From the IMG/VR virus record IMGVR_UViG_3300022821_000007, positions 1 to 45,604 of that record: DNA of 45,604 nt. One strand, 5' to 3'. The notes under the pieces are model-generated. The model saw nothing but the letters and a program-made list of their open reading frames with translations. It had not been told where the DNA came from and made no database searches. Position numbers and translations under genes: made by a program. This document shows, one piece after another, positions 1 through 45,604 of this stretch (position 1 is the stretch's first letter; the number at the start of each line of letters is the position of its first letter). This DNA is from a virus.

Positions 1-127
1 AATGTAGGAATAAGTACAACTAACCCAACTGAACCTTTTACAGTTATTGGAAATAGCCTTTTAAATTCTGTTCTAGTCACAAATGCTGATTCGTCTTTAT
101 CTTCTAGCCCATATGTTCTAATAGCTA
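1..127. repeat. Left copy of the 127-bp terminal direct repeat
   Basis: Bases 1-127 are identical to 45478-45604. Both copies lie inside one open reading frame and keep its phase. A repeat of exactly 127 bp matches the largest k-mer used by common de Bruijn assemblers. It is therefore best read as an assembly overlap of a circular or circularly permuted genome, not as a biological terminal repeat. Confidence 0.95.
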
Positions 128-462
128 GGTCTTCAGGAGCAGGTTCTGGGATTTATGCAGATGCTGGTAATCTTGTATTACAACCGAGAGGAAGCATTTC
201 TGGGAGAGGAACTTATATTTTAGATGGTGGGGGAGATATTAATATGTCAATTTTAGATGGAGGCAACGTAGGAATAGGAACATCAACACCAGAAGCCCTC
301 TTTCATGTCTCAGAAGCAACTGCAACTACGACAGCAGAATTTGGAAATGATGGAGGTACTTCACCTTCCTGTATGAAATTCCAAGACACAGACGGAGCAG
401 GATGGACATATTGTACTTTCCTTAATGGAACTATGACATGCGATACTAACTCATGCGAATAA
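1..462 (+). CDS. Exported repeat-containing surface/tail-fibre protein, C-terminal part (wraps from 44215)
   Basis: This is the 3' part of the gene that starts at 44215. Position 1 is the first base of a codon, and the frame stays open to TAA at 460-462. It carries two NVGI(G/S)T..(N/T)P motifs, near bases 1-30 and 268-297, the second followed by LFHV. This motif family is common in bacterial surface proteins and phage tail fibres. The C-terminus has the cysteine-bearing pattern DTDGAGWTYC then TMTCDTNSC, which I associate with surface proteins of candidate-phyla bacteria (family impression, not a search result). Joined across the repeat, the protein is 574 residues. An ATG at 244 would give a 72-residue product, but the open frame upstream makes that unlikely. 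The next gene starts 4 bases downstream. Confidence 0.8.
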   Translation, partial: NVGISTTNPTEPFTVIGNSLLNSVLVTNADSSLSSSPYVLIARSSGAGSGIYADAGNLVLQPRGSISGRGTYILDGGGDINMSILDGGNVGIGTSTPEALFHVSEATATTTAEFGNDGGTSPSCMKFQDTDGAGWTYCTFLNGTMTCDTNSCE

Positions 463-2963: not shown

Positions 2964-4163
2964 ATGAGTAAAAAGTATAGCGAAATCGATGTTGATCTAC
3001 AGGATCTATTCGGGTCTACTGCTAACATCAAGATCGATAAAGTAGTTAGAAAAAGATTATTTAATAAAGTATTAGATGATCTAGGTTTATTTGCTAACTG
3101 GTCATTTGCGATCAGAAGAATAAATTTTAATTACTTGAAAGACTTAGGAGAATATAACGTAGAGAACTACTTAGGTCTAACTGATTACAAAGCTATCAAA
3201 TCGTTAGGAGGAGTTGCAGTAATACACGAAGACGACTACGAACCACAGCATGTTAATGGATTGAAGATAAGAGATAAGAAGTTTAGTGGCAGAGGTCATT
3301 CATGCTTTCAAAGAGTAGCTGATACAATGATCGATGGAGTTCCATATCTCTTAGCTAATCTGCAAGCAAGTAGTACTTTACAGATCTCTGGATTAGATGC
3401 TTTAACTAATGAAGGAACATGGTCAGTAGTAGGTGATGCAATTAACTTAGCAGTAGATACACAAGAGTATAGACAAGGTAATGCTTCTCTTAAATTTGAT
3501 ATAGATGTAAGTGAAGAGGTTGGTAATTACGCTGGTATTACTAACTCTACTATTAATTCAATTGATCTTACTGATTATGCATTCGCATCTGATTTCTTAT
3601 TAAGAACTTATTTACCAGAGTCAACTGATGTAGAGTCTATTGAATTAAGAATTGGTAGCTCTAGTTCTGCTTATTATAAAATGACAACTACAGTTCCTAT
3701 TAATAATACAGAGTTAGAAGATGGATGGAATAGAGTTAAGTTAGCATTTGATAATAAGACTACAGTTGGAGTACCAGACATAACTTCAATCGTATATGCA
3801 GAGTTAAGAATTAATTATGCAGCAGGATATACAGATCAGCAAGTAGCTAGATTTGATGACTTACAATTAAATAAGAGATTCCAATTAGATATGTCTTACT
3901 TCTCTTCTTTCTTTGCAAAGTCAGCAGCTGGAGTAAGACAACAGTATATAGTAGCAGACACAGATGTTCTCGTAGCTTCTAACGATGTTGTTAATGCATT
4001 AGAAGAACTAACATTCTATCAGATGCAAAGAACTACTAAGAGTTTAAAGAAAGCAGACAGAGATGAAGCATTCTTAAATTATAGAGCAATAAGAAATCGA
4101 TTAAGACATAGATATGGTTATGCAATCAAGAGAGGATCAAGACATGTTAAAACTCAACGATAA
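2964..4163 (+). CDS. Virion structural protein with a jelly-roll-like insert
   Basis: 399 residues, starting one base after the previous stop. The N-terminal 140 residues are mixed alpha/beta (VDLQDLFGSTANIKIDKVVR, then SFAIRRINFNYLKDLG). Residues about 150-305 form a beta-rich module (GNASLKFDIDV, DGWNRVKLAF, YAELRINY, ARFDDLQL) with the strand pattern of a concanavalin/CBM-like jelly roll. The C-terminal 80 residues are basic and helical (KSLKKADRDEAFLNYRAIRN). It sits just ahead of the beta-propeller-like tail gene, so a head-tail adaptor or tail-surface role is likely. No named family is recognised. Confidence 0.55.
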   Translation: MSKKYSEIDVDLQDLFGSTANIKIDKVVRKRLFNKVLDDLGLFANWSFAIRRINFNYLKDLGEYNVENYLGLTDYKAIKSLGGVAVIHEDDYEPQHVNGLKIRDKKFSGRGHSCFQRVADTMIDGVPYLLANLQASSTLQISGLDALTNEGTWSVVGDAINLAVDTQEYRQGNASLKFDIDVSEEVGNYAGITNSTINSIDLTDYAFASDFLLRTYLPESTDVESIELRIGSSSSAYYKMTTTVPINNTELEDGWNRVKLAFDNKTTVGVPDITSIVYAELRINYAAGYTDQQVARFDDLQLNKRFQLDMSYFSSFFAKSAAGVRQQYIVADTDVLVASNDVVNALEELTFYQMQRTTKSLKKADRDEAFLNYRAIRNRLRHRYGYAIKRGSRHVKTQR

Positions 4164-4166
4164 AAT

Positions 4167-5939
4167 ATGGAAAATTTACTAGACAAAACAAAGTTTCTTG
4201 GTTTATTCACGAGACAACCAGTCACAAAGAATAGGCCAGATACAGCAGCAGTAGCTTTGAATGTTAAGATTACTGGAGAAGGAGTAGAACCTGTTAAGGG
4301 TTATACATTCTTTGGTAAGACTAAAGACTTAACTGCAAGACAGAAGATATCAGATGCGTTCACATTCATTCTTCAAAGTGGAGAAGAGATACCAATGAGA
4401 ATATTAAATGATACGTCAAATAATATTGTCCAATGGTACGATGCTACAAATGATGACTGGTATGACCTACTTGCTATCACAGTTGATACAACTGTATCAT
4501 TTCAAGACTATAATGCAAGCACAGAGAATGCTATCTACTTTGGAAATGGAGTTGATAACCATACTAAGTGGTCAGGAAATAAAACAAGATTGACAGCAGC
4601 TATTACAGCGACTGATACAGATATTCCAGTAACAAGTACAGATGGCTTTGAAGCTACTGGTACAATCACTTATAATGGAACAGAGATCGCTTATACTTCA
4701 AAGACTGCAACGACGTTTGTAGTAGGTTCTGCTCATGCATCAGCTGGAGCAGACGATGGGGTAGCTGAAGCAGCAGATGATGCTTCTCTCGCAGGAGTAG
4801 CTTTAAGTAAGATCTTACTGTCAGCTCATAACAGAATGTACTTAGTGAATGAATCAGATCCTAACTCTATTGAATATTCTAAAGAAGGAGATGCAGAGAA
4901 TTGGACATCAGGAGCTAACAGAGCAGACGCTGGAGTGGAAGACTTTCCAGTAGTTGGTGGAAGAATCAATGGACTAGCAGTCTTAAGAAACTATATTGTG
5001 ATCTTTAAAGACAGAACGATTCTTATGTTCAAATGGGAATATCCAACTTCTACAACTAAAGTACCAGCTTATGAGCATGTTGTAATTGGTAGTAATATTG
5101 GCTCAATCACTCACAAAGGGATTGCTAATATTTATAAAGAGTTATTCTATACAACTAACAACGGAATTAGATCACTTACACAAAACTTAGTTACAGGCCA
5201 ATGGGATGCTGATCCTTTAACTGGTCCGATTGATGCTTCAATCAAGTTATATGATTTTGATGAAAGTGCATCAGTATACGATGACGCAGAAGATGTTTAC
5301 CTAGTAGCATGTAAATCTAAATCTACGATGACTCATAACGATAGAGTTATCGCTGTCTGGTTTTATATAGACGACACTGGGGCAAGAAGAAAAGGTTTCT
5401 CGATTCTAGATTGGAATGTAGCATGCTGGTTCCACTATGATCAGAAGTTATTCTTTGGATCTTCAGTCGATGGAAATACTTACCAAGCATTCAATTCGCA
5501 TACTAGAGATGGTACTGCTTTAATTTCTATCTACACTAATAATAGGGATGACTTTGGAAAGAAGAGCTTGAAGATATCAGATGCGCTTATGATTGAAGGA
5601 TTAATAGCACCAGGTACAGAGATTGAGTATACTATCTTCTTTGATGGAGGTAATACTGGTAGCCAAGTATTCACAATTAAATCAACTGGAGTATATGTTA
5701 AAAAGAAGAAGATAAATACTTTAGGTTCATTTAAACTTGGTGAAGCAGTGTTAGGACCAGAGATAGCTGGCTTAGAGAATCTACAGCAATTCAATATTAC
5801 AGTACCATTAAGAAACTCTAATTTCTATGATTTACAAATACAAAGAAGATCAACAAAACTATCTAGTAATTATTTAATATATTATGAGGGAATAATCGAT
5901 ACGTCAGAATCGTACGATAGTCCTCATGAAGAAGCTTAA
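4167..5939 (+). CDS. Beta-propeller-like tail protein (podovirus nozzle/stabilisation type)
   Basis: 590 residues. Repeated beta strands typical of phage tail beta-propellers are visible: LLSAHNRMYLVNESDPNSIE with YSKEGDAENW, then GGRINGLAVLRNYIVIFKDR, then ITHKGIANIYKELFYTTNNG, then SILDWNVACWFHYDQKLFFG. An inserted module at about residues 140-190 (ITATDTDIPVTSTDGFEATG, TITYNGTEIAY) is a common phage beta module. The N-terminal LFTRQPVTKNRPDTAAVALN matches the start of P22/T7-type tail hub or nozzle proteins. These assemble at the tail tip of short-tailed phages. The gene starts 3 bases after its neighbour. Assignment is by pattern. Confidence 0.6.
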   Translation: MENLLDKTKFLGLFTRQPVTKNRPDTAAVALNVKITGEGVEPVKGYTFFGKTKDLTARQKISDAFTFILQSGEEIPMRILNDTSNNIVQWYDATNDDWYDLLAITVDTTVSFQDYNASTENAIYFGNGVDNHTKWSGNKTRLTAAITATDTDIPVTSTDGFEATGTITYNGTEIAYTSKTATTFVVGSAHASAGADDGVAEAADDASLAGVALSKILLSAHNRMYLVNESDPNSIEYSKEGDAENWTSGANRADAGVEDFPVVGGRINGLAVLRNYIVIFKDRTILMFKWEYPTSTTKVPAYEHVVIGSNIGSITHKGIANIYKELFYTTNNGIRSLTQNLVTGQWDADPLTGPIDASIKLYDFDESASVYDDAEDVYLVACKSKSTMTHNDRVIAVWFYIDDTGARRKGFSILDWNVACWFHYDQKLFFGSSVDGNTYQAFNSHTRDGTALISIYTNNRDDFGKKSLKISDALMIEGLIAPGTEIEYTIFFDGGNTGSQVFTIKSTGVYVKKKKINTLGSFKLGEAVLGPEIAGLENLQQFNITVPLRNSNFYDLQIQRRSTKLSSNYLIYYEGIIDTSESYDSPHEEA

Positions 5940-17218: not shown

Positions 17219-17698
17219 CTATCTAATGTCTAATAGCAATGGAAGACTTCTAACATACCCACCGTATGATACGATGACAGCTGAATAGTTTCCTGCTTGT
17301 AAAGTAAAGATCGAAGTGTGACCTGTTCCATAGTTTGCATCTTCTACTCTTTGTAGTTGTCCGTCTTTGTAAATCTCTACGTAGCTATTAGTAAACTGAT
17401 TAGTTAGCCACTGTAGTTTGACATTACCATATCCAGCAAACTCTCCTGGAAAGTATACGATTGAATCTGCAATAGAGATTCTCTCACTTCCTGGTGCTAT
17501 CCTGTTAGTAAAGACAACAATTAAACTACTAGAACTCGATGGTACTTGAATGCAAGCACCTAGTGCATCTTCTGTACCAGCTCTTCCACCTGATGTGCAA
17601 GAGTCTCCTAACGCAGCCGATGTTGTATTAACATTAGCTCCGGTGCTCAGTATTAGAGCGATCACAATCATAATTGCAATCTTATATAAATTTCTCAT
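17219..17698 (-). CDS. Secreted beta-rich protein
   Basis: 159 residues. It has a signal peptide (MRNLYKIAIMIVIALILSTG) with cleavage likely near TTSAA (about residue 28), then a short segment with two cysteines (DSCTSGG and GACIQV) that may form a disulphide. Residues about 60-159 form beta strands like an Ig or Ig-like fold (GYGNVKLQWLTNQFTNSYVE, then IFTLQAGNYSAVIVSYGG). It is the only obviously exported protein of the leftward arm and is transcribed with early or replication genes. A surface-exclusion or host-envelope role is possible; no family is recognised. Confidence 0.6.
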   Translation of the reverse strand: MRNLYKIAIMIVIALILSTGANVNTTSAALGDSCTSGGRAGTEDALGACIQVPSSSSSLIVVFTNRIAPGSERISIADSIVYFPGEFAGYGNVKLQWLTNQFTNSYVEIYKDGQLQRVEDANYGTGHTSIFTLQAGNYSAVIVSYGGYVRSLPLLLDIR

Positions 17699-40721: not shown

Positions 40722-41123
40722 ATGTTCAAACCACTTAGATATGATAGTGGAAAGTTAGCAGAGAGACCAGCAACAGCTGCTCAAGAGTTTGTTAAATATC
40801 AATTAGCAAAAATGAGCTCTGGACTATTAGTAACAGCTGATGCAGGAGACGCAGAAGCTGAGTACATTGTAATGGAAGGCATTACAGTTGCAGCTGATAG
40901 TGATCCAGTACTAGTATTACCTATCGATGATGTGATGGATGTTATTGCAACTACTGCTACTACTCCAGTTCAAGCTACTCATGTTGGTAACGATTACGAT
41001 ATAGGAAGTAACGTTGCTCTTGATCTAACTGCTACTACTGACAAACTTTTCCACGTTGAAGAAATCTTTAGTGCTAGTGATAAACAAGTACTAGGGCGAT
41101 TCAACAAGCCAGCTATAGCTTAA
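40722..41123 (+). CDS. Head decoration-like protein
   Basis: 133 residues, beta-rich, with hydrophobic strands and Thr/Ala/Val (EAEYIVMEGITVAADSDPVL, then DVIATTATTPVQATHVGND). The gene lies between scaffold and capsid genes, where head decoration or capsid-stabilising proteins are encoded. The start MFKPLRYDSGKLAERP is a common opening of short coat-associated proteins. The assignment is from position and composition. Confidence 0.5.
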   Translation: MFKPLRYDSGKLAERPATAAQEFVKYQLAKMSSGLLVTADAGDAEAEYIVMEGITVAADSDPVLVLPIDDVMDVIATTATTPVQATHVGNDYDIGSNVALDLTATTDKLFHVEEIFSASDKQVLGRFNKPAIA

Positions 41124-41164: not shown

Positions 41165-42145
41165 ATGATTACTAAAAAAGATTTCCCTTCACTCTCAACT
41201 AGACTAGACGAGATCTTCAATGAATCTACTCAAGATTCATTAGCGATGGCTAAAGGCTTCGACGTTTTCGAAGTAGCTGAGACAGACAGAAAAGATTTCA
41301 AATTCCAAATTTTACATGGAGTTGCTGGCGTAAGAAAAGTTACACCAGGTCAAGATCTACCGAGAGTAGATGGTATAGAAGGCGATGACATTTCTTATTC
41401 ACAGGCTTACTATGGTGCTATTGTTCCAGTAACAAAAGAGAATAGAAAGTTTGATGAATATGACGAGATCGATGATATCGCAGCTTCTATTACAGAAGAT
41501 GCTTGGGATAAAGTAGACCAGTCTCTAGCAGACGTTTTACTTAATGGATGGGCTAATTCTTACACAGATGTTTGGGGAGAGACTATTACAGCAACTGGAC
41601 CAGATGGAGTAATGCTATTTAATGCAAACCATACTAACCCTGCATCATCAAGAGTATTTTCTAATTTAATTAATGATGGCACAAATAACAATCCTACTTT
41701 TTCAAGAGAAGCTATTGCTAACCAGATTGCTAGAGGAAGAGGATTCAAAGATGTACATAACCTTAGTAAACCAGTTATCTTTGATACGTTACTTATTCCT
41801 TCAGAGTTAGAAGATGCAGCAATCAGATACACAGAAACTATTCAGTTACCTGGTACTCCTAATAACGATACCAATAAATATGTTACTCAGACTATTAAAC
41901 AGATTATTGTTTGGGAAAGACTTTCTACAAGAAGCGATGGAACAGATACTTCTGCATACTGGTTCATGCTATCATCTAAGAAAGTTGGTAAATCTCTAAA
42001 GTGTAAATTCGCAGAGAGACCAACCTTAGATGCACCTGAACAAGTTTATTCTAATAAGAATTGGGATTGGTCAATTGATTTCTTCTACGCAAGAGGAATT
42101 GGTTACCCTCAGTTTGTTGCAGGATCAAATAGTTCAAACGCCTAG
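41165..42145 (+). CDS. Major capsid protein (HK97-fold type)
   Basis: 326 residues. Segments typical of Mu/HK97-like capsid proteins: PVTKENRKFDEYDEIDDIAA in the E-loop region, DGVMLFNANHTNPASSR, KPVIFDTLLIPSELEDAAIR, and DWSIDFFYARGIGYPQ at the end (the last strand often precedes the stop). Size and position after scaffold and decoration genes agree. Strong hairpin 7 bases after the stop (42153), so this is probably the end of a highly expressed message. Confidence 0.8.
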   Translation: MITKKDFPSLSTRLDEIFNESTQDSLAMAKGFDVFEVAETDRKDFKFQILHGVAGVRKVTPGQDLPRVDGIEGDDISYSQAYYGAIVPVTKENRKFDEYDEIDDIAASITEDAWDKVDQSLADVLLNGWANSYTDVWGETITATGPDGVMLFNANHTNPASSRVFSNLINDGTNNNPTFSREAIANQIARGRGFKDVHNLSKPVIFDTLLIPSELEDAAIRYTETIQLPGTPNNDTNKYVTQTIKQIIVWERLSTRSDGTDTSAYWFMLSSKKVGKSLKCKFAERPTLDAPEQVYSNKNWDWSIDFFYARGIGYPQFVAGSNSSNA

Positions 42146-42203: not shown

Positions 42204-42863
42204 ATGAGTATAAATTGGGGAAAACTCAAAAGCCAAGATCGTGTCAAGGATATAGGTAAACCTTGGTCCGAAGCAGAACAACTGGCTATCCATGAGTACA
42301 ATATTCCTGCTGCATACGTCAGAGGAGGTATTCTGACAAAGAAGGAATATAAAAAAGAATTAGCTCAAGAAAAATCTAGAGGTAAAAGCGTTGAAATGCT
42401 TTCTAGTAATGAGCTTCTTAATTACGCAACTAGATTAGGTTTACCAGCTATTGCAGAGATGTCATTTGCTGCTATGCAATTAGATGTTAAGAACAAGATG
42501 GAAGAAGAAGCATTAGAAACTTTCGAAGACATTAGAAAGTATGAATCAGAGCAAGCTGAACTTAAGAAAGGAAACGAAGACGAAGCTGAAGAGGAAGAAG
42601 ACGATGAAGAAGAAGATGGAGAGGAAGAAGCAGAAGAAGAAACTGAAGAGGTAGAAACTGAAGAAGAAACTGAAGAAGAGACTGAAGAAGAGACTGAAGA
42701 AGAGACTGAAGAAGAGGACGAAGAATCAGAAGAAGAAGAAGAAGACGAAGAAGAAGACGAAGAGACTGAGGAAGAAGAAGCTGCTAGAATTAAGAAAGAG
42801 AAAGCAAAGAAAAGAAAAGCTAAGAAAAAGAAAGCTGCTAAGAAAGCAGGCAAGAAAAAATAA
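42204..42863 (+). CDS. Acidic/basic low-complexity head-region protein
   Basis: 219 residues. The N-terminal 115 residues look folded (SINWGKLKSQDRVKDIGKPW, then GLPAIAEMSFAAMQLDVKNK). Residues about 125-195 are Glu/Asp/Thr repeats (EETEEETEEET), and the tail is Lys/Ala-rich (KKRKAKKKKAAKKAGKKK), like a histone tail. Position after the capsid gene suggests a head-interior or head-completion protein; the basic tail could bind packaged DNA. Confidence 0.5.
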   Translation: MSINWGKLKSQDRVKDIGKPWSEAEQLAIHEYNIPAAYVRGGILTKKEYKKELAQEKSRGKSVEMLSSNELLNYATRLGLPAIAEMSFAAMQLDVKNKMEEEALETFEDIRKYESEQAELKKGNEDEAEEEEDDEEEDGEEEAEEETEEVETEEETEEETEEETEEETEEEDEESEEEEEDEEEDEETEEEEAARIKKEKAKKRKAKKKKAAKKAGKKK

Positions 42864-42889: not shown

Positions 42890-43591
42890 ATGAAGAAATC
42901 ACACATCGCAATTGCATTCGCTGTATTTGCTTTAGTAGTTGTTCTTGGTTCTGTATACGGTGTTCGAGCTTATGACGAAAATAAAGTTATCAGCCAGAAC
43001 ATCGAACATGCAGACGTTGTTTATCAACAGTGCTCAGCTGAAGTAGCTGCTTTACCATCTGACGTAGGTGGTGCAGTCTCTTCTGTTGCTGGAGTTTGTA
43101 ATGGGTACGAGTTACCTACGCAATTATGTAACGTAAATGCTTATGAACTTCAACTGCAGACTGATTTAACTATCGATGATGAGTTAACAGTTAGCGGAGA
43201 AGCTATTTTCGAAGGATTAACATCTGGATCAGGTGCTAATCAATTAGCGACTAGCACAGGAACAACTATCTTAACAGCAGCTCAACTATTAGCTAACAGC
43301 TATTTAGAGATTACTGTTAATACTGGTACTACAGCTACAGTTGAATTACCTGCAACTTCTACTATGACAACTCTGATGCCAAATGTATCAGATCATAGAG
43401 AATGGGTTATTCATAACGCAACATCTAGTACAATGGCTATGACCATTACAAAGGGAGATGGAATTGATTTAATCGGAGTTACAACTAACGATGATGTAAT
43501 TGATGAGACAGAATACTCTCTGCTTAGTTGTTGGAGAAAACCTGACACTGACTTAGCATGCCTTCTTACTGAATGGCTACACTTAGACTAA
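42890..43591 (+). CDS. Exported virion-arm protein 1
   Basis: 233 residues. Signal peptide or anchor (MKKSHIAIAFAVFALVVVLG, then SVYGVRA at about residue 27), followed by a Cys-bearing segment (YQQCSAEVAALP, VCNGYELPTQLCN) and a beta-rich C-terminus with Thr/Ser repeats (TGTTATVELPATSTMTTLMP, ATSSTMAMTITKGDGIDLIG). It is like fibre-associated proteins in composition. Its position between head and fibre genes suggests a tail-surface component. The family is unknown to me. Confidence 0.55.
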   Translation: MKKSHIAIAFAVFALVVVLGSVYGVRAYDENKVISQNIEHADVVYQQCSAEVAALPSDVGGAVSSVAGVCNGYELPTQLCNVNAYELQLQTDLTIDDELTVSGEAIFEGLTSGSGANQLATSTGTTILTAAQLLANSYLEITVNTGTTATVELPATSTMTTLMPNVSDHREWVIHNATSSTMAMTITKGDGIDLIGVTTNDDVIDETEYSLLSCWRKPDTDLACLLTEWLHLD

Positions 43592-43606
43592 TCGGTTATA
43601 TTTAGT

Positions 43607-43627
43607 TGGCTTCTACAAAAGGAGCCA
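43607..43627 (+). terminator. Weak hairpin between two exported genes
   Basis: TGGCTTC (43607-43613) and GGAGCCA (43621-43627), 7 bp with one G-U, loop TACAAAA. It sits 16 bases after the stop of the first exported protein and may reduce readthrough. Confidence 0.35.
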
Positions 43628-43661
43628 GCGATACTATAATTAATTAAAATATAATAAGAGT

Positions 43662-44213
43662 ATGAAACTAAAAGACATTTTTATTGTTGCAGTAGTTCTA
43701 TCAGCTCTAGTGATTTCACTAGTTGCTTTAAACTTTGCAAATGAAGCAAAGATGTTAGCGAATCCTTCTGTCGAAAAGGACGAGACATCTATTGCTGGTG
43801 ATTTCTTTGTATTAGAGAATCACAAGTATAACACAGCGACAACTACAGTTGAGTATTTAATCTCAGCTGGAGATGCAATCACTGAAGAATTTTATACAGG
43901 AGATGCAGATTTACTTGATATGAATCTAGCAGTAGTCGCAAGTTCTACTTCAGCTGTACTATCATGGGAGTTTGAATACTCTGATAATTACATTGATTGG
44001 TACCAAGAATCTGGGTCACAAGTTGATTCAATCACGGCAGTTAGTTATGGAGCAACTGGCTTAGTCCATAGTTGGACACCAGGAACTACATCAGAGTCAT
44101 TAAGAAATTTCTCAATGTCTCCAGTAGCAGCTAAGTATACGAGAGTAACATTCTCAGCATCAACTGCTAACTTATCACTATGGTATAATATAATTAACAG
44201 GAGAACACAATAG
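43662..44213 (+). CDS. Exported virion-arm protein 2
   Basis: 183 residues. A single N-terminal anchor (KDIFIVAVVLSALVISLVAL) without a clear cleavage site, then a beta-rich domain (NTATTTVEYLISAGDAITEE, VLSWEFEYSDNYIDWYQESG, AAKYTRVTFSASTANLSLWY) that resembles a jelly-roll or discoidin-like fold. Likely anchored in the host membrane or on the particle. The leader contains no Shine-Dalgarno. The following fibre gene starts one base after its stop. Confidence 0.55.
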   Translation: MKLKDIFIVAVVLSALVISLVALNFANEAKMLANPSVEKDETSIAGDFFVLENHKYNTATTTVEYLISAGDAITEEFYTGDADLLDMNLAVVASSTSAVLSWEFEYSDNYIDWYQESGSQVDSITAVSYGATGLVHSWTPGTTSESLRNFSMSPVAAKYTRVTFSASTANLSLWYNIINRRTQ

Positions 44214-44214
44214 T

Positions 44215-45604
44215 ATGAAGAAAATATTTAACTATGCAATCATTCCTATATTAGCATTGGCTATCGTAGGAATAGTATATGCACAAGCTAGTTCTTTGAT
44301 CTACATCTCTGATGATGGAAATACGAGAATTATAAATCTAGAAGAGAGTGATGTAGCGGGAAGTGGAGGACAGATATATGAACCAACAGCTGTTGATCTT
44401 TCTGATTTAACTTTAGCAGAGAACTCAGTATACAGAGGAGATGCTTCTGATAATCCAGAAGCTACAAGTGATTTAACAATATTGTCAAACGGCAACGTCG
44501 GGATAGGGACAGACACCCCAACCTCTTTATTACACGCAGTCCAAACCTCAACAACAGGAAGCACAGGATATTTTTATAGAAACTTAGCAAGTGCTTCTAC
44601 TGATAGTCCTTTGATGCAGTTAATAAATGACAATGCAGGAGATGACCAGAATGTTCAAACTAATCAAAATGACGGAACAGGTGATACTTTATTTTTAGAC
44701 ACAAACGGTAATACAACTTCATTAAACATAGATAGTGAAGCAACAACAGCTGGTGTCTTTACTTTGGAGTCACTTAATACTTCTGGAAGATTATTATTAG
44801 TTAGAAATTATGGAGCGATGGCTTCAAATGTTTCTAACGCTGTTGCTTCTTTTCAACAAAATTCATCTAGTTCAGGAGGAATTACATTAGAATCTAAGAA
44901 TGCAGGTACAGGAAACACCCAATTCCTAGACACAAACGGAGACGCAATATCTCTAAACATAGACTCCGAATCAACCACTCAGGATATTGTTAATATAGAT
45001 GGAGCCCCATTAACCTCTGGTATAGCACTAGACGTTATAGGTGGTGCAAGTAAAACTGGTACTCTTGGAGTTGCAAGGTTCTTAAATTCTGGTGACGCAA
45101 CCAATGTTTCTATCGACCAAAAGGGTAATGGTATATCTCTAAACATAGACTCCGAAGCAACAACTGCTAATGTAATAACTGTAGGGACTGTAAACACAGA
45201 CAGAGGAGTCAAATTTTTTAGTACTGGAGCATATACAGGTACTACTAACGGTGGTTTTATATTGGCAGAATTAACGAATGCAGCATCTACTCAACCTGTA
45301 TTTTTATCAAGAAATGCTGGAAGTGGTGTAGGATTAAGAATCGACAACAATGGCAATGGCATAGGCTTAGAAATAGACTCCGAAGCAACCTCAGCAACAG
45401 TCCTTAATGTAACAGCAGAAAACACAAGCGGAAACATTATGAATATTGATAGTAAGTTAGTAATGGATTATGAGGGGAATGTAGGAATAAGTACAACTAA
45501 CCCAACTGAACCTTTTACAGTTATTGGAAATAGCCTTTTAAATTCTGTTCTAGTCACAAATGCTGATTCGTCTTTATCTTCTAGCCCATATGTTCTAATA
45601 GCTA
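44215..45604 (+). CDS. Exported repeat-containing surface/tail-fibre protein, N-terminal part (continues at 1-462)
   Basis: The frame is open from ATG 44215 to the window end and continues, in phase, through the terminal repeat to TAA at 460-462: 574 residues in all. A signal peptide is clear (MKKIFNYAIIPILALAIVGI, then VYA). The stem has an NVGIGTDTPTSLLH motif near residue 95 and four copies of a unit with (S)LNIDSEATT (about residues 170, 247, 309, 385), spaced 62-77 residues. Such repeats build trimeric beta-helical fibres. Codons of the first NVGIGT part end more often in C/G than the rest of the genome, suggesting a mosaic origin. Confidence 0.75.
   Translation, partial: MKKIFNYAIIPILALAIVGIVYAQASSLIYISDDGNTRIINLEESDVAGSGGQIYEPTAVDLSDLTLAENSVYRGDASDNPEATSDLTILSNGNVGIGTDTPTSLLHAVQTSTTGSTGYFYRNLASASTDSPLMQLINDNAGDDQNVQTNQNDGTGDTLFLDTNGNTTSLNIDSEATTAGVFTLESLNTSGRLLLVRNYGAMASNVSNAVASFQQNSSSSGGITLESKNAGTGNTQFLDTNGDAISLNIDSESTTQDIVNIDGAPLTSGIALDVIGGASKTGTLGVARFLNSGDATNVSIDQKGNGISLNIDSEATTANVITVGTVNTDRGVKFFSTGAYTGTTNGGFILAELTNAASTQPVFLSRNAGSGVGLRIDNNGNGIGLEIDSEATSATVLNVTAENTSGNIMNIDSKLVMDYEGNVGISTTNPTEPFTVIGNSLLNSVLVTNADSSLSSSPYVLIA
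44722..45400 (+). repeat. Four degenerate (S)LNIDSEATT modules inside the fibre gene
   Basis: TTA/CTA-AAC-ATA-GA(T/C) units begin at 44722, 44953, 45139 and 45367 (the last reads LEIDSEAT). They are 231, 186 and 228 bases apart. Each follows a D.(N/K)G(N) turn, giving a repeat of about 62-77 residues. They share codons (ATAGACTCCGAA in three of four), so unequal recombination could change copy number. Confidence 0.7.
45478..45604. repeat. Right copy of the 127-bp terminal direct repeat
   Basis: Exact copy of bases 1-127. It carries the codons for NVGISTTNPTEPF inside the fibre gene, so the duplicate should be removed when the circle is closed, leaving 45,477 bp. Confidence 0.95.

Follow-up and report, generated by a model that had tools for sequence, protein, structure and literature searches.

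Conserved Predicted Export Signals on Candidate Receptor-Binding Proteins of a Tailed Phage Probably Infecting Patescibacteria

In the phage genome contained in the window, as we term the whole 45,604-nucleotide stretch of DNA analyzed here, genes of the virion arm carry N-terminal export signals that are conserved in relatives, that precede spike and collar domains, and that fall, by gene order, among the structural genes. The explanation we favor is that the receptor-binding proteins of this phage are exported by Sec and would join virions outside the cytoplasm around lysis; we infer the export, the cleavage, and the incorporation, and give the whole close to an even chance of being right. 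The phage is probably a tailed virus of the ultra-small Patescibacteria, and the retained signals, which hint that the phage makes or uses its fibers in an unusual manner, bear on phages of these bacteria, a group little known so far.

Results

The first and last 127 bases of the window are identical, and this 127-bp direct terminal repeat identifies a complete circular phage genome. The gene content, with a terminase (35979; genes are named by their start positions) and HK97-type capsid genes, is that of a headed phage and includes a portal-like protein assigned by position (37621), a major capsid protein (MCP; 41165 to 42145, + strand) assigned by PHROG match, tail proteins (2964 and 4167), a collar protein (5926), and a 2,094-aa protein (8976). 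The opposite strand carries a family B DNA polymerase, a primase-helicase, and small genes.

A preliminary description of the window had listed seven genes with a signal peptide or N-terminal anchor. All seven reading frames exist, six of them with Sec-type signals and one, 1118, with an anchor only. Calls were made with a home-made, rule-based caller (not SignalP) that looks for a positive n-region, an uncharged 11-residue h-region (mean hydropathy ≥ 2.0), and a −3/−1 site. It called signal peptides in 467, 5926 (or its inner start 5941), 17219, 42890, 43662, and 44215, each of which has a positive n-region and an uncharged hydrophobic core within its first 40 residues. Small residues at −3 and −1 after the core are clear in 42890, 44215, 467, 5926, and 17219, weak in 43662, and absent in 1118. 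Because its N-terminal hydrophobic segment lacks a cleavage site, 1118 reads as an anchor, and 43662 may be one too, since its strong h-region is not followed by a good −3/−1 site. Across the window, 7 of the 57 genes received a signal call (the seventh being the 66-aa membrane protein 1783), far above the 0.16 expected from whole-protein shuffles, and none of 147 internal-Met controls was called. The caller classed 1118 and 31411 as anchors; 31411 and 18807 also have N-terminal hydrophobic segments and, like 1783, look like ordinary small membrane proteins. By these sequence features the listed proteins are predicted Sec and signal peptidase I substrates, with translocation and cleavage likewise predicted, and we regard Sec targeting of the N-termini as very probable. 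Among the structural genes of reference podophages, few or none receive a signal call (T7, 0/12; P22, 0/12; HMO-2011, 0/29; BcepC6B, 1/15; and P-SSP7, 1/19).

The signal-bearing genes of the virion operon occupy the slot after the MCP gene and the stretch that separates the tail hub gene from those for the large internal proteins. The first slot is marked by a conserved acidic gene directly after the MCP gene (42204 to 42863, + strand). The preliminary description had placed its observation at 42890 to 44213, where the genes are real and which holds only two of the seven. One of these (42890 to 43591, + strand) encodes a 233-aa exported-type protein with a predicted signal peptide (ending VYGVRA, then YD), a low-confidence linker, and a C-terminal beta-sandwich (residues 113 to 233), as judged from the signal caller, an AlphaFold2 (AF2) model, and homologs. 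The other (43662 to 44213, + strand) encodes a 183-aa protein with an N-terminal hydrophobic signal or anchor. The next gene, 44215 (44215 to 45604, + strand), specifies a fiber-like protein with a predicted signal peptide (IVYA, then QA) and GNVGIGTxTP repeats. Because the genome is circular, with its 127-bp terminal repeat, the gene crosses the junction and runs on into positions 1 to 462 (+ strand), which encode the C-terminal part of the 574-aa product. It is followed by a 96-aa predicted exported protein (467 to 757, + strand; NAFA, then IQ) with a YGIGTTTP repeat unit, a paralog of the 44215 type, and by the 95-aa anchor-bearing protein (1118 to 1405, + strand). Farther along, a tail hub or stabilization-like structural protein without a signal (4167 to 5939, + strand) lies just upstream of the gene for the tail-collar-domain protein (PF07484; 5926 to 7344, + strand), a candidate receptor-binding tip with a predicted signal peptide (VAIQA, then EV). 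The remaining member of the set belongs to the early arm and is a 159-aa predicted exported protein (17219 to 17698, − strand; TTSA, then AL), a candidate host-envelope protein.

MCP searches yielded 36 viral loci. In other viral contigs, no homolog of 42890, 43662, or the collar protein lacks an N-terminal signal or anchor; the signals noted on the collar and fiber-like genes are real features that relatives retain. All homologs of 42890 (L002, L006, L018, L040, and L042) keep the signal. Where the hydrophobic core ends, all six members of the family, though diverged in sequence, retain Ala at −1 and have either Val or a small residue at −3. The hydrophobic N-terminus of 43662 is kept in all its homologs (L002 and the L003 group); 43662 alone as query against viral contigs gave no match. 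Of the collar homologs, those of L041 and the L003 contig (L081) carry a signal and those of L040 and L042 an anchor. The full pattern recurs in L041, at four matching positions. Loci L040 and L042 have signal-bearing proteins in common with the window, yet their capsid genes were not detected as MCP relatives. Among the three full-length collar proteins, the signals are 21 to 37% identical, compared with 59 to 72% for residues 85 to 200, and on these alignments the collar-protein signal is apparently under selection as a signal. No relatives were found for 1118, or for 17219 among the related loci compared. Small proteins of L029 and L018 that aligned to 43662 as signal-free homologs were rejected as too distant.

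In the MCP tree the trait is clustered: a group comprising the window, L002, L003/L005, L006, L018/L019, and L041 (as L083), all with signals, has a weakly supported base, and a second apparent gain of signals occurs in L034/L035. Other relatives have signal-free genes in the slot after the MCP gene, with signal-bearing fiber-like proteins elsewhere in L015 and in a provirus described below. In the fiber gene of L003, the sequence ending SVQA is followed by the predicted cleavage point and then by DWRFNPFTQKLDYY, while in signal-free sister fibers the same motif begins at the initiator Met (L031, MFKINPFTGKFDWV; L015, MPFKFNPITGNLDLV). As cleavage in L003 would expose an N-terminus like the starts of the L031 and L015 proteins, the signal seems to have been added ahead of an ordinary fiber N-terminus, which the predicted cleavage would restore; this is the single clear case, encountered outside any survey.

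The domains behind the signals resemble phage attachment proteins. In the AF2 model of 42890 the linker is poor and residues 113 to 233 are usable, with pLDDT there mostly 63 to 82, which is moderate. This region matches the folds of the Pseudomonas phage Pa223 capsid spike (Z = 10.2), the Solidus tailspike (8.7), T4 gp10 (8.3), CBA120 TSP4 (8.2), and T4 gp9 (7.0), and mature 42890 has 192 viral structure-model matches at E ≤ 0.001. Mature 42890 models, at moderate quality, as a phage spike or T4 gp10-type attachment domain. Over its C-terminal 120 residues it shares the fold of the Pa223 spike, T4 gp10, and CBA120 TSP4 (Z = 8.2 to 10.2), whereas sequence identity to them is only 10 to 19%; these three proteins are made in the cytoplasm. 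Matches to the 42890 family in Patescibacteria genomes were weak and largely over the signal region. Gene 5926 matches the Pfam tail-collar domain at 66.1 bits (curated cut-off 24; E = 2.7e-18) and tail-protein PHROGs as well. Its conserved N-terminal domain has no convincing match in PHROGs and none in cultured phages, and profile comparison (hhalign) of this mature domain with the signal-free tail proteins of sister phages detected no similarity. An AF2 model of the collar protein (pLDDT 31) was discarded. Collar domains are rare among Patescibacteria, occurring in 7 of the 380 genomes compared; several belong to large proteins with multiple collars, and the N-terminus of at least one such protein resembles that of a type IV pilin. 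The GIGT repeats of 44215 and 467 define a fiber type that, with the L015 relative as query, is found as giant chromosomal proteins in 21 of the 380 genomes; several of these bear signals and lie beside housekeeping genes. The proposal that the phage encodes host-like adhesins gains some support from this shared repeat type.

Close MCP relatives were found in only 2 of 84,980 species genomes, both in the same phylum, and one of these genomes belongs to Ca. Staskawiczbacteria of the Patescibacteria group. Its contig 17 (G001) encodes an MCP 50% identical to that of the window. The phage there has a tyrosine integrase and is flanked by an AIR synthase gene and, at its opposite end, by a ribosomal-protein operon with SecY, identifying it as an integrated provirus. 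In its late region is a 780-aa signal-bearing fiber-like protein (L086:8878-11220). These data support Patescibacteria as hosts of the capsid lineage, rather than of this exact phage; the episymbiont host proposed earlier is therefore upheld at the level of the lineage and short of proof for the phage itself. The provirus of this capsid lineage is represented by L086:14579-15655, with L044 and L085.

Discussion

Textbook accounts place the assembly of tailed phages entirely in the cytoplasm up to lysis, and we know of no tailed phage shown to attach its fibers after export. Under the explanation favored here, the virion arm would encode receptor-binding spikes and fibers as Sec substrates (42890, 44215, 467, the collar protein 5926, and probably 43662). 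Their N-terminal signals would carry them across the host cytoplasmic membrane, where most would be cleaved by signal peptidase I before folding on its outer face, while heads and tail hubs would assemble in the cytoplasm; the exported proteins would then dock through their mature N-terminal regions on meeting the particle, at the membrane or at lysis. Given Sec targeting, a role in the virion is favored because the genes lie in the virion operon, because spike and collar domains follow the signals, and because these are the only recognizable fiber, spike, or collar genes; no signal-free gene of these kinds was recognized in the window. Against this, the tail protein 2964, with its weak tail-protein family match over residues 162 to 304, could itself bind the receptor, and neither 43662 nor the collar proteins of L040 and L042 have a clear cleavage site. 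For the early-arm protein 17219, a place in the host envelope is more likely than one in the virion.

A different use of real export signals would be that the proteins act as free or surface-bound receptor-binding decoys that mask host receptors, keeping infected cells and debris from taking up progeny or competing phages, or that alter host attachment. We consider this the main rival, less likely than a virion role, and several observations are in its favor. Both BcepC6B gp19 and PBR31 orf035 place a tail-fiber tip domain on a stand-alone signal-bearing protein, as a decoy would; the GIGT-type repeats recur in the giant, often signal-bearing, chromosomal proteins of Patescibacteria; and 17219 fits a decoy better than a virion role. 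Porphyromonas phages (Nixviridae) are described as encoding five signal-bearing proteins of unknown function, proposed to modify the host surface (PMC10367356). As in the present phage, the Sec signals are encoded by the phage and fitted to the rules of its host; they differ in that collar or spike domains are not reported for the five proteins in the passage considered (PMC10367356). However, most signal-bearing genes of the window lie inside the virion operon, among structural genes, and if none of their products entered the virion, the phage would lack any recognizable fiber, spike, or collar gene, save for a possible extra domain in 2964. The same gene order separates them from lysogenic-conversion (moron) genes, which form a separate unit outside the structural operon, whereas five of the signal-bearing genes lie inside it; 17219 could qualify as a moron surface protein.

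It is less probable still that the N-terminal helices escape cleavage, either tethering the proteins to the inner membrane as docking sites or lying as hydrophobic segments within the virion and helping DNA ejection. Good cleavage sites are missing from 43662, L041:1694, and the L040 and L042 collar proteins, and L029:11307, in the slot after the MCP gene, was called an anchor. For 43662 and 1118, uncleaved anchoring is possible. By contrast, A-X-A-like sites follow the h-region in 42890, 44215, 467, the collar proteins of the window, L041, and L081, and L003:11216. A miscalled start, with translation beginning farther downstream and the hydrophobic N-termini left out of the real proteins, is very improbable; although alternative starts exist for some genes (5926/5941), in-frame hydrophobic N-termini recur in independent relatives of diverged sequence and most of the genes have K/R beside the Met and start close behind the previous gene.

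Among known systems, the coat proteins pIII and pVIII of filamentous phages (Inoviridae) are virion proteins exported by Sec before assembly, as proposed here; the window phage differs in being headed, and its assembly at the membrane is only a possibility. In cultured tailed phages, gp19 of Burkholderia phage BcepC6B and orf035 of Xanthomonas phage PBR31 are signal-bearing proteins, annotated as tail fiber or putative structural protein, with a C-terminal domain common to ordinary T7-type tail fibers and found in the ordinary tail fiber of Klebsiella phage SAA231. They differ from the present set in that one such protein is seen per phage, its sequence is unrelated to those in the window, and the hosts are others. 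Predicted signals on fiber, structural, or collar genes are thus not confined to this host, occurring in BcepC6B, PBR31, and ctLwi270. The last (L067; MW202554), an uncultured spring podovirus, has three clear signal-bearing late genes (one lectin-like, one with glycoprotein repeats, and one unnamed), and its collar protein, which adjoins the stabilization protein, begins with a signal-like helix that lacks lysine.

Single signal-bearing fiber or structural genes are already present in cultured phages. In the open-access literature searched we found no discussion of the export of gp19 or orf035 and no paper on exported tailed-phage fibers; as far as we found there, no earlier description exists of a conserved set that takes in essentially every candidate receptor-binding protein. 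If the favored explanation is true, tailed-phage assembly would gain a step outside the cytoplasm from such conserved exported proteins, and the fibers would be open to envelope chemistry (disulfides and glycosylation) and to secretion-dependent host factors; otherwise, exported receptor decoys may have been revealed.

Two compositional features were compared between exported and other proteins. The tetrapeptide [AG]-[ST]-[ST]-[ST] occurs 97 times in exported proteins of the phage lineage compared with 18.9 expected from composition, a fivefold excess, and near expectation in its cytosolic proteins (30 compared with 18.4). One guess is that it is a surface-modification site. More tentatively than the core proposal, then, a tailed-phage lineage may make its spikes and fibers outside the cytoplasm, exporting them by Sec, maturing them, possibly modifying them at A-[ST]-[ST]-T motifs enriched only in exported proteins, and adding them to particles at or after lysis. 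The enrichment covers exported proteins of the window, L002, L003, L041, and L015. A[ST]{3} is raised in several giant exported-type GIGT-repeat proteins of Patescibacteria; as a general mark of exported proteins in that group it was rejected (18 compared with 17 expected). Cysteine is significantly more frequent in exported than in other proteins of the window (0.84 compared with 0.23 per 100 aa), whereas across the relatives the values are 0.60 and 0.62. Because the enrichment disappears there, oxidative folding is not supported in general, and the cysteine content was rejected as proof of it.

Further genes of the virion arm drew attention in passing. Two small membrane proteins (1530 and 1783; 1530 to 1983, + strand) are possible lysis genes. 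An adjoining 337-aa protein (1949 to 2962) is also conserved in L041 (53%) and in L003 (29%), where Cys84, His225, and Asp positions do not vary; it recalls a papain-like peptidase, with no match in Pfam or PHROGs. In the tail protein at 2964 to 4163, the region with the weak PHROG match could be an inserted binding domain. Finally, a small protein encoded before the MCP gene (40722 to 41123) is present in 36 related loci and is a candidate head decoration protein.
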